Source: Bacteroidota bacterium (GTDB lineage: Bacteria; Bacteroidota; Bacteroidia; 2-12-FULL-35-15). From it: DNA of 64,000 bases. Positions within the stretch are counted from its first letter, which is position 1, and each line of letters opens with the position of its first letter. The translations under genes were made by a program, and so were the position numbers. Shown here piece by piece: positions 50,682 through 55,952 of this stretch. The notes below the pieces were generated by a model. It saw only the letters and a program-made list of their open reading frames with translations. It ran no database searches and was not told where the DNA came from. The DNA is taken from positions 124,001-188,000 of the forward strand of contig JAOQAG010000027.1 of assembly GCA_025963715.1 (NCBI GenBank). The letters run 5' to 3'.

Positions 50682-51566
50682 CTATGCTTTTCGAATCAGA
50701 TAAATTTGACTAGAGGAAGTTCTTCCGGATTTAAGTGCAGCAATATTTGAGCGCAAACCGTTCCACGTGGAACGAATTATATTTGTCTTGCCTGTTTTAA
50801 TTTTTTCACTCAGCATAGAAACATAAAATGAATCGAAGATCATTGGCATGATCCGGAATACTTTCATCTCATGATTTTTAAAAAGAGTTTCCATGTCGTT
50901 TGGAGTAAAGTGATAAAGATGTCGGGGTACATCATAAGCTGCCCAATTTTCTTTATAAACTTTTGCATCCAGGGAATTGCAATTAGGTACCGCGATAATG
51001 ATAACGCCTTTCGATTTGATCAAACGTTTCAATTCGTCAATTCGTTCGTTTAATTTAGGCACATGCTCTAATACATGCCACATGGTAATAATATCAAAAC
51101 TGGCATCCGGTAAATTCTTTAACTCCTCTTCTCCTTTCACATCTAAACCATAATTTTGAATTGCCATTTCACGTGCGTCATCATCCGGTTCTATTCCCAG
51201 GGTTTGCCATTTTGCGTTTTTGCAGGTATTTAAAAACTCTCCGGTTCCACATCCAATATCCAATATTTTTCCGGTCTTATAAAACTTGGAGATGAGTTGC
51301 AATTTTTTCAATAAAGTGTATTTCCGTACAGATTGATAAGTAGAGTTAATGAATCCTTTTTTTGTGTTTGAGTGGGATACATATTCTTCGGATTTATAAT
51401 ACTTTCCTAACTCTTTCTCTTCGGGACGGGGATTTGTAAATTTAAAACCACATGAGTTACATTGTATAATTTGGAATGTTTCACGTGAAACAGTATTGTC
51501 TATACAGACCAAAAAAGGGTTAAAGTGGGTTAAATTACAAATCGGACAATTAGTTAATGTTTCCAT
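50682..51566 (-). CDS. Class I SAM methyltransferase with N-terminal zinc-finger-like motif, containing two parS sites
   Basis: 294 residues. CPIC near residue 7 and CNSCGFKF near 37 form a likely zinc knuckle, as in Methyltransf_13-type proteins of sugar or lipid modification. SAM motif I is ILDIGCGTGEFLNTC (about 96), with DIITMWHVLEHVPKL and later KSKGVIIIAVPN. Substrate unknown. Unusual: two perfect parS palindromes lie inside the frame. One encodes VSRET at about residues 25-30 and the other RSTWNG at about 265-270. Ends at the terminator at 50617-50654. Confidence 0.88.
   Translation of the reverse strand: METLTNCPICNLTHFNPFLVCIDNTVSRETFQIIQCNSCGFKFTNPRPEEKELGKYYKSEEYVSHSNTKKGFINSTYQSVRKYTLLKKLQLISKFYKTGKILDIGCGTGEFLNTCKNAKWQTLGIEPDDDAREMAIQNYGLDVKGEEELKNLPDASFDIITMWHVLEHVPKLNERIDELKRLIKSKGVIIIAVPNCNSLDAKVYKENWAAYDVPRHLYHFTPNDMETLFKNHEMKVFRIMPMIFDSFYVSMLSEKIKTGKTNIIRSTWNGLRSNIAALKSGRTSSSQIYLIRKA
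50759..50774. promoter_or_regulatory. parS: parS centromere site 1
   Basis: CGTTCCACGTGGAACG, a perfect 16-bp palindrome with the GTTCCACGTGGAAC core of the universal ParB site. Lies in the methyltransferase coding sequence. Confidence 0.9.
51477..51492. promoter_or_regulatory. parS: parS centromere site 2
   Basis: TGTTTCACGTGAAACA, identical to the classical bacterial parS consensus variant. Lies near the 5' end of the methyltransferase coding sequence. Confidence 0.92.
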
Positions 51567-51577
51567 AAATGGTTTCG

Positions 51578-51593
51578 TGTTCCACGTGGAACG
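51578..51593. promoter_or_regulatory. parS: parS centromere site 3
   Basis: TGTTCCACGTGGAACG; 14-bp perfect core at 51579-51592. 12 bp upstream of the methyltransferase start, so ParB binding could also affect its transcription. Confidence 0.92.
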
Positions 51594-51669: not shown

Positions 51670-51685
51670 CGTTCCACGTGGAACA
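51670..51685. promoter_or_regulatory. parS: parS centromere site 4
   Basis: CGTTCCACGTGGAACA; perfect 14-bp core at 51671-51684. In the 344-bp gap 51567-51910, which otherwise is AT-rich with no gene or RNA that I can see. Confidence 0.92.
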
Positions 51686-51886: not shown

Positions 51887-51902
51887 TGTTTCACGTGAAA
51901 CA
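51887..51902. promoter_or_regulatory. parS: parS centromere site 5
   Basis: TGTTTCACGTGAAACA, identical to site 2; eight bases beyond the end of mnmG. Confidence 0.92.
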
Positions 51903-51910
51903 ATATATAA

Positions 51911-53815
51911 TTATCTACCTAAATACACCATCAAAATAGAAATGTCTGATGGTGTAATTCCAGAAATCCGTGATGCCTGACCAATGGTTCTTGGTTTCAC
52001 TTTAGTTAACTTCTCCCGGGCTTCCATTGATAAAGAAGTCAATCGCTTGTAATCAAAATCATCATGTAAAACCAAATCTTCTAAGCGGGTTTGCTTATCT
52101 GCCAGCTCATGTTCTTTAGAAATATATCCTTCATACTTCATTAAAATTTCGGCTTGTTCAATACTTTCTAAATCGTAGTTGGAAATGAATTCTTTTACTT
52201 TTGGAGAGTATAAAGCAAAGTCTAAAAGGGTAATAATTGGACGCGTCAATACACCAAACATTTTTACTTTTTGAGTAATGGGAGCAGAGCTAATTGCTTC
52301 TAAAGCTGGATTAATTTCTGTTGGCTCAATGCTTTCTTTTTTGAAATAAGAGATGATCTCCTGGGTAAATTTCATCTTTTCATTTACACGATCCAAACGT
52401 TCTTTTGATGCCAAACCAAGCTCATGTGATTTTGGAGTAAGGCGAATATCTGCATTATCCTGGCGCAATAAGATCCTGTATTCAGCGCGTGAAGTAAACA
52501 TACGATATGGTTCTTCAGTACCTTTTGTTACAAGGTCATCAATCAAAACTCCAATATATGCTTCCGAACGCTGAAGGATAAATGGCTCCCGATTATTAAT
52601 TTTTAAGTGCGCATTGATCCCTGCCATTAATCCCTGGCAAGCTGCTTCTTCATATCCGGTTGTGCCGTTAATCTGGCCAGCAAAATATAAATTTTGAATA
52701 AGCTTTGTTTCTAATGTCAGAGCTAATTGTTGAGGCGGGAAATAATCATATTCGATCGCGTAACCCGGACGGAACATTTTTACATTTTCGAAACCTGGAA
52801 TTTTTTTCAGTGCTTTGTATTGAACATCTTCCGGAAGGGAAGTAGAAAAACCATTTACATAGATCTCCACCGTATTCCAACCTTCCGGCTCTACAAAAAT
52901 CTGGTGACGTTCGCGTTCAGCAAAACGCGTAATTTTATCTTCAATACTTGGACAATATCTTGGTCCTAAACCTTGAATCCGACCTGAGAACATGGGTGAT
53001 TTTTCGAAACCTGTTCTTAAAATCTCATGAACATCTTCATTTGTGTAAGTAATATAACATGGAATTTGTCCTTCCGGTCCAGCTAAAAAAGCATCCTTAC
53101 GATCCGTTTTAAATGCAAATTGTTTTACATCCAGGTAAGAGAATTTGTTAGGATTTTCATCACCATGCTGCACTTCCATTTTTGAATAATCAAGAGAGCG
53201 GCCATCAATACGTGGCGGAGTTCCTGTTTTCATCCGGCCAGCTTCAAATCCTAATTGAACCAATTGTTCAGTAATTCCTTTAGAAGATTTTTCACCCGCA
53301 CGACCTCCGCCATATTGTTTTTCACCTAAATGGATCAAACCATTTAAAAAAGTTCCGTTGGTTAAGATCACAGATTTTGAACGAATTTCAATATCCATTC
53401 CGGTAATAATTCCACATGCTTTTCCATCTTCCACTATTAAACCCTTTACCATGTCCTGCCAGAAATCTAAATTCGGAGTCGCTTCTAACATCAATCTCCA
53501 TTCTTCAGCAAATTTCCAGCGATCACTTTGAGCACGCGGACTCCACATCGCAGGACCTTTAGAACGATTTAACATTCTGAACTGAACAGCAGTTTTATCG
53601 GTTACAATTCCGGAATAACCACCAAGCGCATCAATCTCACGAACGATCTGTCCTTTTGCAATTCCGCCCATGGCAGGGTTACAGCTCATCTGTGCAATCG
53701 TTTGCATATTCATGGTTACCAGTAATGTGGACGAACCCATATTTGCAGCAGCAGCGGCAGCTTCACATCCCGCATGACCGGCACCAACCACTATAACATC
53801 GTATTCTTTAAACAT
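51911..53815 (-). CDS. mnmG: tRNA uridine-5-carboxymethylaminomethyl synthesis enzyme MnmG (GidA)
   Basis: 634 residues, full length. FAD-binding VVGAGHAGCEAAAAAANMGS at the N-terminus, then CNPAMGGIAKGQIVREIDALGG, GTFLNGLIHLGEKQYGGGRAG, and CPSIEDKITRF. The C-terminal helical domain ends RTIGQASRISGITPSDISILMVYLG. With MnmE it modifies U34 of certain tRNAs. mnmG is often close to the chromosome origin, which fits the parS cluster just beyond its end. Its own start follows the nadA terminator. Confidence 0.97.
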   Translation of the reverse strand: MFKEYDVIVVGAGHAGCEAAAAAANMGSSTLLVTMNMQTIAQMSCNPAMGGIAKGQIVREIDALGGYSGIVTDKTAVQFRMLNRSKGPAMWSPRAQSDRWKFAEEWRLMLEATPNLDFWQDMVKGLIVEDGKACGIITGMDIEIRSKSVILTNGTFLNGLIHLGEKQYGGGRAGEKSSKGITEQLVQLGFEAGRMKTGTPPRIDGRSLDYSKMEVQHGDENPNKFSYLDVKQFAFKTDRKDAFLAGPEGQIPCYITYTNEDVHEILRTGFEKSPMFSGRIQGLGPRYCPSIEDKITRFAERERHQIFVEPEGWNTVEIYVNGFSTSLPEDVQYKALKKIPGFENVKMFRPGYAIEYDYFPPQQLALTLETKLIQNLYFAGQINGTTGYEEAACQGLMAGINAHLKINNREPFILQRSEAYIGVLIDDLVTKGTEEPYRMFTSRAEYRILLRQDNADIRLTPKSHELGLASKERLDRVNEKMKFTQEIISYFKKESIEPTEINPALEAISSAPITQKVKMFGVLTRPIITLLDFALYSPKVKEFISNYDLESIEQAEILMKYEGYISKEHELADKQTRLEDLVLHDDFDYKRLTSLSMEAREKLTKVKPRTIGQASRISGITPSDISILMVYLGR

Positions 53816-53942: not shown

Positions 53943-54929
53943 TTACAAACCTAATTGTGCAGATAAATCAAGCATTCTGACGATTGGTTTCTTTGCTTTT
54001 TCAATTAAATCAGCTGGCAATATGATCTCCGGTTGTTCGTATTTAAGGCAATTATAGAGCTTCTCCAGCGTGTTTAACTTCATGTGAGGGCAATCGTTGC
54101 AAGCGCAGGAATTATTCGGTGGAGCAGGTATAAATGTCTTTCCCGGATTGGCTTTTTGCATCTGGTGAATGATCCCGGCTTCGGTTGCAACAATAAATTC
54201 GGTTGCAGAAGATTTACCGGCGTAATTTAAGATCCCGGTTGTACTGCCAATGTAATCAGCTATTTCAAGCAAATTGGCTTCACATTCAGGATGCGCTAAA
54301 AGTTTAGCATTGGGATGTTGGTTCTTCAACTTTGTGATTTTCTCCAGTGAAAAAATTTCGTGAACCATGCAGGCACCATCCCACAAAACCATATCACGAC
54401 CCGTTTTTTTCTTAATGTAAGCACCTAAATTCTTGTCAGGGGCAAAGATGATCTTTTGATCTTTCGGTAAGCTCTCAACAATTTGTACGGCGTTGGTTGA
54501 TGTACAAACAATATCGGTCAATGTTTTCAGCTCAGCTGTGCAGTTGATGTACGAGATCACGAGGTGATCGGGATATTGCTTTTTAAATTCGGCAAACTTA
54601 TCTGCAGGACAGGAATCGGCTAGTGAACAACCTGCACGGAGATCCGGCAATAAAACTTTTTTACCGGGGCATAAAATTTTTGCAGTTTCGGCCATGAAGT
54701 GAACTCCTGCAAAAACGATGATATCAGCTTCCGTGGCGGCTGCCTGTTGTGATAATCCCAAACTATCGCCGATGTAGTCTGCAACATCCTGGATGTCGGC
54801 ATCCTGGTAATAGTGGGCAAGTATGATGGCATTTTTTTCTTTTTTTAGTTTGTTTATTTCCGAAAACAAATCTACGGATAAATCCACCGGAATATCGAGG
54901 AAACCTTTTTTGAGCAAGTCAGCACCCAT
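53943..54929 (-). CDS. nadA: Quinolinate synthase
   Basis: 328 residues. Fe-S enzyme joining iminoaspartate and dihydroxyacetone phosphate to quinolinate in NAD synthesis. Signatures: [88 protein letters not shown] and the C-terminal [21 protein letters not shown]. The three cluster Cys can be matched to the [16 protein letters not shown] region, HPECE and CNDCPHM, so it looks active. nadB is not nearby. It is the last minus-strand gene before the divergent gap I propose as the origin. Confidence 0.96.
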
Positions 54930-55520
54930 ATCAATATTATATATTTTAATTAAAATTTAATAAAAAATGTTGTTGTTGTTGGTCTGTTAGTGGAGTGTAT
55001 AAAAACATTACAAAAGTATTGATTTTATCAGTTCTCACATTTAAGTAACAGGTATTAAGAAGTTGTTACGCATTAAGTGGCTGAATAATAGAACTATCAA
55101 GGTTTATAAACAATGTGTTAATTACATTACCATTGAATAACTATTGTGTTAAGTTATTAGCTTTTGCGTTAAAATAATGTTCATTTGTTTTGTGAAAATG
55201 TGGTAAGTTTTTCTTTTTTATTCCGATTAAAAACATAATGAAGTATTAAACCGGAGGAACCTAGAAAAACTTTACAGAGATTGATAACAAAGAACTTTAT
55301 TATCAACAAAGATACTGTTAATAAAATAAAAATTAGAGTGCTAGTTATCAAGCATTTATTTTTCAATTTTACATAGGTGTTAATTCACGGTTAATAACCG
55401 TAAACGGCTTTGCAAAAAGATGCATTTTCAGGTATTTTGAACAATTTCAAAATTAACATTGGCTTTATTTTTTAATTCTAAAATTTTTTCCCCTAAAAGG
55501 GACAATCAAACAACAAACAA
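54930..55520. other. oriC: Candidate chromosomal origin region (oriC)
   Basis: A 591-bp AT-rich gap without a gene, between divergent nadA and rpiB. DnaA-box-like sequences of the form TTATnnACA are TTATAAACA (55104-55112), TTATCAACA (55300-55308) and, reversed, TTATTAACA (55316-55324), plus gttatcaagc nearby. A 15-bp inverted repeat ACGGTTA-A-TAACCGT lies at 55387-55401. Gene orientation diverges here, parS sites lie 3-4 kb to the left, and hand counts of a few lines show C above G on the plus strand to the left (53581: G9, C17) and G above C to the right (58681: G24, C15). No perfect TTATCCACA is present. Confidence 0.45.
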
Positions 55521-55952
55521 ATGAAGATAGCAATTGGTTGTGATCATGCTGCATTTCAATTAAAAGAAAAATTGAAAGTGTATTTACAGGAAAAAGGATT
55601 TGAAATTAAGGATTTCGGAACCTATTCGGAGGAGCGTGCCGATTATGCGGATTATGGACATCCGGTGGCAACGGCAGTTGAAAACAAGGAATTTGATTTT
55701 GGCTTGCTGATGTGCGGAAGCGGAAACGGGATCAACATGACGGCAAACAAGCACAAGGGAATTCGTGCAGCTTTGTGTTGGAATGCAGAAATTGCGGAAC
55801 TGGCGCGCCTGCACAACGATGCGAACATTTTAACATTACCGGCACGTTACATCAGCGAGGAAGAAGCAAAAAAATGTGTGGATGTGTTTTACTCGACGGC
55901 GTTTGAGGGCGGGAGACATACAGAGAGGGTGAAAAAGATTTCGGAATTCTAA
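55521..55952 (+). CDS. rpiB: Ribose-5-phosphate isomerase B
   Basis: 143 residues. Family motifs: IAIGCDHAAFQLKEKLKVYL, DFGTYSEERADYADYGHPVA, GLLMCGSGNGINMTANKHKG with the active-site Cys, and IRAALCWNAEIAELARLHNDANIL. It interconverts ribose-5-P and ribulose-5-P in the pentose phosphate pathway. First gene right of the putative origin; the ATG follows the AT-rich leader. Confidence 0.95.
   Translation: MKIAIGCDHAAFQLKEKLKVYLQEKGFEIKDFGTYSEERADYADYGHPVATAVENKEFDFGLLMCGSGNGINMTANKHKGIRAALCWNAEIAELARLHNDANILTLPARYISEEEAKKCVDVFYSTAFEGGRHTERVKKISEF

Follow-up and report, generated by a model that had tools for sequence, protein, structure and literature searches.

Origins of chromosome replication in Bacteroidetes commonly lie far from the dnaA gene (PMC4755523), and bacterial origins have been found to follow parS sites and strand skew better than they follow dnaA (PMC10197239). 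The mnmG (gidA) gene is a frequent neighbour of such origins (PMC2275245). DnaA of E. coli requires the motifs TTGT and TTATT in the T-rich strand of the DNA unwinding element, or DUE (PMC5742627). For DnaA-trios, the existence of variants without the middle adenine has been suspected (PMC8287927), and a T in the middle position functions poorly in Bacillus subtilis (PMC10721633).

We analyzed a stretch of 64,000 nucleotides (the window) from a contig of an uncultured Bacteroidota bacterium, for which a sequence-only reading had proposed a replication origin in the gap between nadA and rpiB. As judged by sequence comparison, this gap is very probably the chromosomal oriC of the organism. This reading rests on the agreement of independent lines of evidence: conserved and near genome-unique DnaA boxes, the sole parS cluster of the genome, the strand-corrected skew switch in relatives, and the enrichment of boxes upstream of nadA in other families. 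As an origin it is an ordinary DNA site, but its parts and its address directly upstream of nadA recur in much of the phylum.

The nadA-rpiB gap and its DnaA boxes

The gap extends from 54930 to 55520 (591 bp, GC 0.25) and, as the sequence-only reading had described it, is AT-rich and lies between diverging genes. Its left neighbour is nadA (53943-54929, minus strand; PF02445, E 8.7e-127), beyond which lies mnmG (51911-53815, minus strand; PF01134, E 9.8e-164), and its right neighbour is rpiB (55521-55952, plus strand; PF02502, E 1.7e-59). Searches with RpiB and NadA in 59 relatives showed that most genus members, as well as some other families, have the gap between nadA and rpiB. When the gaps of 17 genus members were aligned with MAFFT, the majority-base frequency was 0.66-0.98 up to position 55409 and 0.20-0.53 from there on. 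The proposed oriC is this conserved intergenic part of about 480 bp, 54930-55409, and the variable remainder, 55410-55520, is probably the rpiB leader alone.

Exactly three TTATNNACA boxes are present in the gap, at 55104 (+), 55300 (+) and 55316 (-), in agreement with the three TTATnnACA boxes first read there; all of them are TTATNAACA, and a Markov model of the gap gave at least three boxes by chance in 12 of 1000 runs. They represent 3 of the 11 TTATNAACA sites of the 236-kb contig, where 0.03 would be expected in the gap, and form the densest such cluster on it. On each of five contigs, 2.6 Mb in total, no TTATNAACA cluster is denser than that of the gap; in one genome (G033) the box count by itself fails to single it out. 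Together, the 17 genus gaps hold 61 TTATNNACA boxes versus 7.0 +/- 2.6 in simulations, which, as the gaps come from related genomes and are not 17 independent counts, means that the sites have been retained. Position 6 is A in 60 of these 61 boxes, and the box dialect here is TTATnAACA.

The first box, TTATAAACA (55104-55112, plus strand), recurs across the alignment, where most of the 17 gaps have TTATNAACA, or a sequence close to it, in these columns. The other two form an inverted pair, TTATCAACA-N7-TGTTAATAA, at 55300-55324 (55300-55308 on the plus and 55316-55324 on the minus strand), which represents a wider pattern: almost every member of the genus has TTNTNAACA-N7-TGTTNATAA upstream of rpiB, as a rule once per genome, with a reversed-pattern control near zero, and the pair in the gap is the sole exact match in this genome. 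The locus therefore has the conserved, above-chance cluster of DnaA boxes that characterizes a bacterial oriC. Two properties count against an oriC, namely that the strong boxes in this species' gap are three only, and that they differ from TTATCCACA at position 6.

The genome also encodes the cognate initiator, a normal DnaA, on contig C24 (locus L015), away from the gap; an origin at dnaA was therefore considered improbable, since dnaA is on this different contig. The DnaA motif GGKDHATVLHA has Ala where GGRDHTTV of B. subtilis has Thr; by alignment this is the position of E. coli Thr435, and Ala is common there to most of the class. A tie between this residue and the changed box was considered and rejected, as there is no clear correlation: Ala is also found in other families of the class, and in the gaps of other families position 6 of the boxes can be A or C.

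Two further candidates within the gap were discarded. The 15-bp inverted repeat that had been listed in favour of an origin does exist, at 55387-55401 (ACGGTTAATAACCGT), but gives no such support, because palindromes of this arm length appear in 38% of the simulations and no conservation of it was found in the 17 genus gaps. An RNA element was ruled out, since a search of the gap against Rfam returned no family at its threshold and no match near it.

Strand asymmetry and parS sites

The assembly consists of 51 contigs, and cumulative skew was thus read per contig and not genome-wide. The reversal of G/C bias that had been counted by hand around the gap is real, with a local cumulative GC-skew minimum at about 54.0 kb, but the window's own contig has a slightly deeper minimum about 98 kb to the left of the gap (C10:81397), which may reflect gene-strand composition or a past inversion. 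With a deeper minimum at that distance the hand count alone was insufficient, and we therefore read long contigs of four relatives, together with a corrected step in which the skew at third codon positions (GC3) was taken after regressing out the gene strand.

On contig C1 of G033 (786 kb), where the gap is at 493.7 kb, cumulative GC skew falls as far as 473 kb, its minimum, and climbs afterwards. Over the 490 kb before the gap, GC skew is mostly negative, and over the 290 kb after it mostly positive; AT skew behaves in the opposite way, and the largest strand-corrected GC3 step (t about 12.7) lies about 2 kb from the gap. The best corrected step lies about 8 kb from the gap in G002. At the gap itself, G011 (t=7.0) and the window's contig (t=4.35) have steps of the same sign, with the best positions about 89 kb and about 122 kb away, respectively, and G010 has no corrected step there (t=0.55). 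These distant best positions, the deeper minimum on the window's contig and the flat G010 count against the gap as the origin. The sign changes from minus to plus regardless of the orientation of the gap on its contig, as expected for an origin and not for a gene-strand effect. A GC-skew switch is accordingly found at the site, more weakly on the window's own contig. The accompanying proposal that genes point along the leading strands holds for the immediate operons but does not extend beyond them, as 56 of the 105 genes located within 150 kb run in the direction of the leading strand.

The parS sites noticed 3-4 kb from the gap were recovered as two exact copies, at 51477-51492 and 51887-51902, which are 3.0-3.5 kb from the gap; the 4.9-Mb genome has no other site with 2 mismatches or fewer, and parS-like sequences with 3 mismatches are found at 51578-51593 and 51670-51685. 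In most genus members with contigs spanning both, parS is near nadA and rpiB, so that the parS cluster expected in the region of a bacterial origin is present.

A candidate unwinding element at the nadA edge

At the nadA edge, next to a tract made up of A and T alone, lies TTGTTGTTGTTG-GTC-TGTTAG, the most conserved element of the gap, with TTGTTGTTGTTGGTCTGTTA as the best-conserved stretch of 20 bp (majority frequency 0.98 in the 17 genus gaps). The A/T-only run of 36 bp (54933-54968), a tract also present in relatives, is a candidate DUE that adjoins the boxes, as in a bacterial oriC. Next to it, TTGTTGTTGTTG (54970-54981, plus strand) offers candidate single-strand DnaA-binding repeats, similar to DnaA-trios with T in the middle and also readable as TTGT. 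The segment 54982-54993 (minus strand) comprises a GTC spacer and TGTTAGTGG, presumably a weak DnaA box (54985-54993). The R1 box of E. coli has a defined polarity relative to the DUE, and the candidate box has the same polarity.

Among the genomes searched, only genus members have the TTGTTRTTGGTCKGTTR pattern: it is present in 26 of them, as a single copy in each except G007, which has two on two contigs. The 23 other-family genomes lack it, and the reversed-pattern control gave 0. An A/T-rich tract occupies the same place in other families, and six nadA/rpiB gaps from these (L048, L075, L079, L088, L112 and L120) have TGTTA[AG][TC] after it. Six genus members in which nadA does not adjoin rpiB keep both the A/T tract and the TTG element, and the distance to the inverted box pair is still about 328 bp. 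Loci of other families lack the TTG element before nadA, with L049 as the sole near match. As it is retained by rpiB without nadA and is missing before nadA of other families, the TTG element appears to belong to the origin, and it was rejected as a nadA leader. Since tract and repeats were kept beside rpiB after nadA had moved, they look like an unwinding element with DnaA-trio-like repeats, having T in the middle. DnaA-trios consist of at least three 3'-NAN-5' repeats no more than 16 bp from a DnaA box; in R1-like polarity the TTG repeats are 3'-GTT-5', and they may act like trios but are not classed as such. We tentatively raise the rather doubtful possibility that they are a deviant trio, in which DnaA would capture 3'-GTT-5' to open oriC, coupled to the shifted double-strand box TTATnAACA.

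These observations bear on two other explanations of the gap. It might be a mere regulatory region shared by nadA and rpiB, with boxes that serve DnaA-controlled transcription or simply match A/T-rich DNA. The flanking genes are divergent, so both promoters must be inside the gap, and a Bacteroidota-like -7 element, TACTTTTG, can be read on the minus strand near 55012-55019. However, the box array remains by rpiB, together with the TTG element, in the six members without adjacent nadA, the TTG element is not a regular companion of nadA outside the genus, the number of boxes is far above that of A/T-matched controls, the skew switch and parS coincide with the gap, and no Rfam family reaches its threshold there, all of which makes this explanation highly improbable. 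We give marginally less credit still to a true origin situated nearby, kilobases to tens of kilobases away (for instance by mnmG and parS), with the boxes as an accessory titration or reactivation site like datA or DARS. Skew locates the switch with a precision no better than about 2-100 kb, and near-tandem TGTGGATAA boxes near nadA in Chitinophaga (L086, L102) are possible titration arrays; against this, the contig has no denser box cluster, an A/T-only tract and trinucleotide repeats are needed by origins and not by titration sites, and a similar arrangement is seen across families.

With the gap as oriC, we infer DnaA binding, the melting site, the captured strand and origin firing as follows. 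DnaA would bind the TTATnAACA boxes, chiefly the inverted pair at 55300-55324 and the box at 55104, plus the weaker box at 54985-54993, and an ATP-bound DnaA oligomer would extend from there along a single strand of the TTG repeats. The A/T-only tract 54933-54968 would then melt and receive the helicase, forks would depart bidirectionally, and ParB on parS, 3-3.5 kb away, would mark and segregate the new origins.

nadA as an address and comparison with known origins

The neighbourhood of nadA was compared in 76 Bacteroidota-type loci collected by NadA similarity, largely from Chitinophagaceae, Sphingobacteriaceae and Saprospiraceae by record title. Upstream of nadA the density of TTATN[AC]ACA boxes is 1.70 per 800 bp, compared with 0.20 for windows of matched A/T content in these loci, an enrichment of about eight-fold directly upstream of the gene; at least two boxes are present there in 38 of the 76 loci, and parS is often by mnmG. 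In the complete chromosome of Chitinophaga sp. E66 (CP079103.1), nadA is at about 5.617 Mb and has four boxes within 800 bp upstream, and all three parS are at 5.621-5.622 Mb, with all parS-like sites 3.5-4.6 kb from nadA. A search for dif in the complete Chitinophaga chromosome gave no match. A literature search, which was not exhaustive, found no paper on nadA as an origin neighbour.

Some observations on individual genomes accompany this comparison. The near-tandem TGTGGATAA boxes of Chitinophaga, possibly a DnaA-titration array, are a few kb from nadA, spaced by about 62 bp in L086 (12422-13022) and by about 72 bp in L102 (18465-18860). nadA is not at the origin in G004 (L032), G005 (L022), G014 (L025), G015 (L035), G022 (L040) and G027 (L021); of these, G004, G014, G015 and G022 encode a more divergent NadA (49-63% identity) at another place in the genome, which suggests that the origin-linked gene was lost and replaced in these four. 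Assemblies break at or beside the origin region in G007 (C17 and C46) and G032 (C137 and C117), and oriC may therefore often be split in metagenome assemblies.

These results place the probable origin of a large uncultured genus of Bacteroidota, and the region upstream of nadA, with mnmG and parS near, provides a simple landmark that should locate oriC in many Bacteroidota where dnaA misleads, and that would aid growth-rate estimates from metagenome read depth. The parts worth pursuing are this nadA address and the unwinding element, whose nearly invariant TTG repeats constitute a natural test of how variable the single-strand recognition code of DnaA can be.

Among known systems, the oriC of E. 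coli has the R1 polarity that we find in the candidate box flanking the DUE, and differs from this locus in its box letters and in that the main inverted pair here is about 330 bp from the DUE-side element. It is likewise near mnmG and has an A/T-rich DUE. TTGT is required on the T-rich strand of that DUE (PMC5742627). The order read here, putative box, short GG spacer, trinucleotide repeats and A/T tract, is that of the basal unwinding system of B. subtilis (PMC8287927, PMC10721633), although the repeats here are 3'-GTT-5' and not 3'-GAT-5' and the adjacent box is weak. The closest resemblance in general layout, a box cluster at a skew switch away from dnaA, is to the predicted Bacteroidetes oriCs of the DoriC/Ori-Finder type, such as that of Prevotella intermedia (PMC4755523), in contrast to which the address, the TTATnAACA dialect and the DUE-side element are defined here by the comparison of many genomes.
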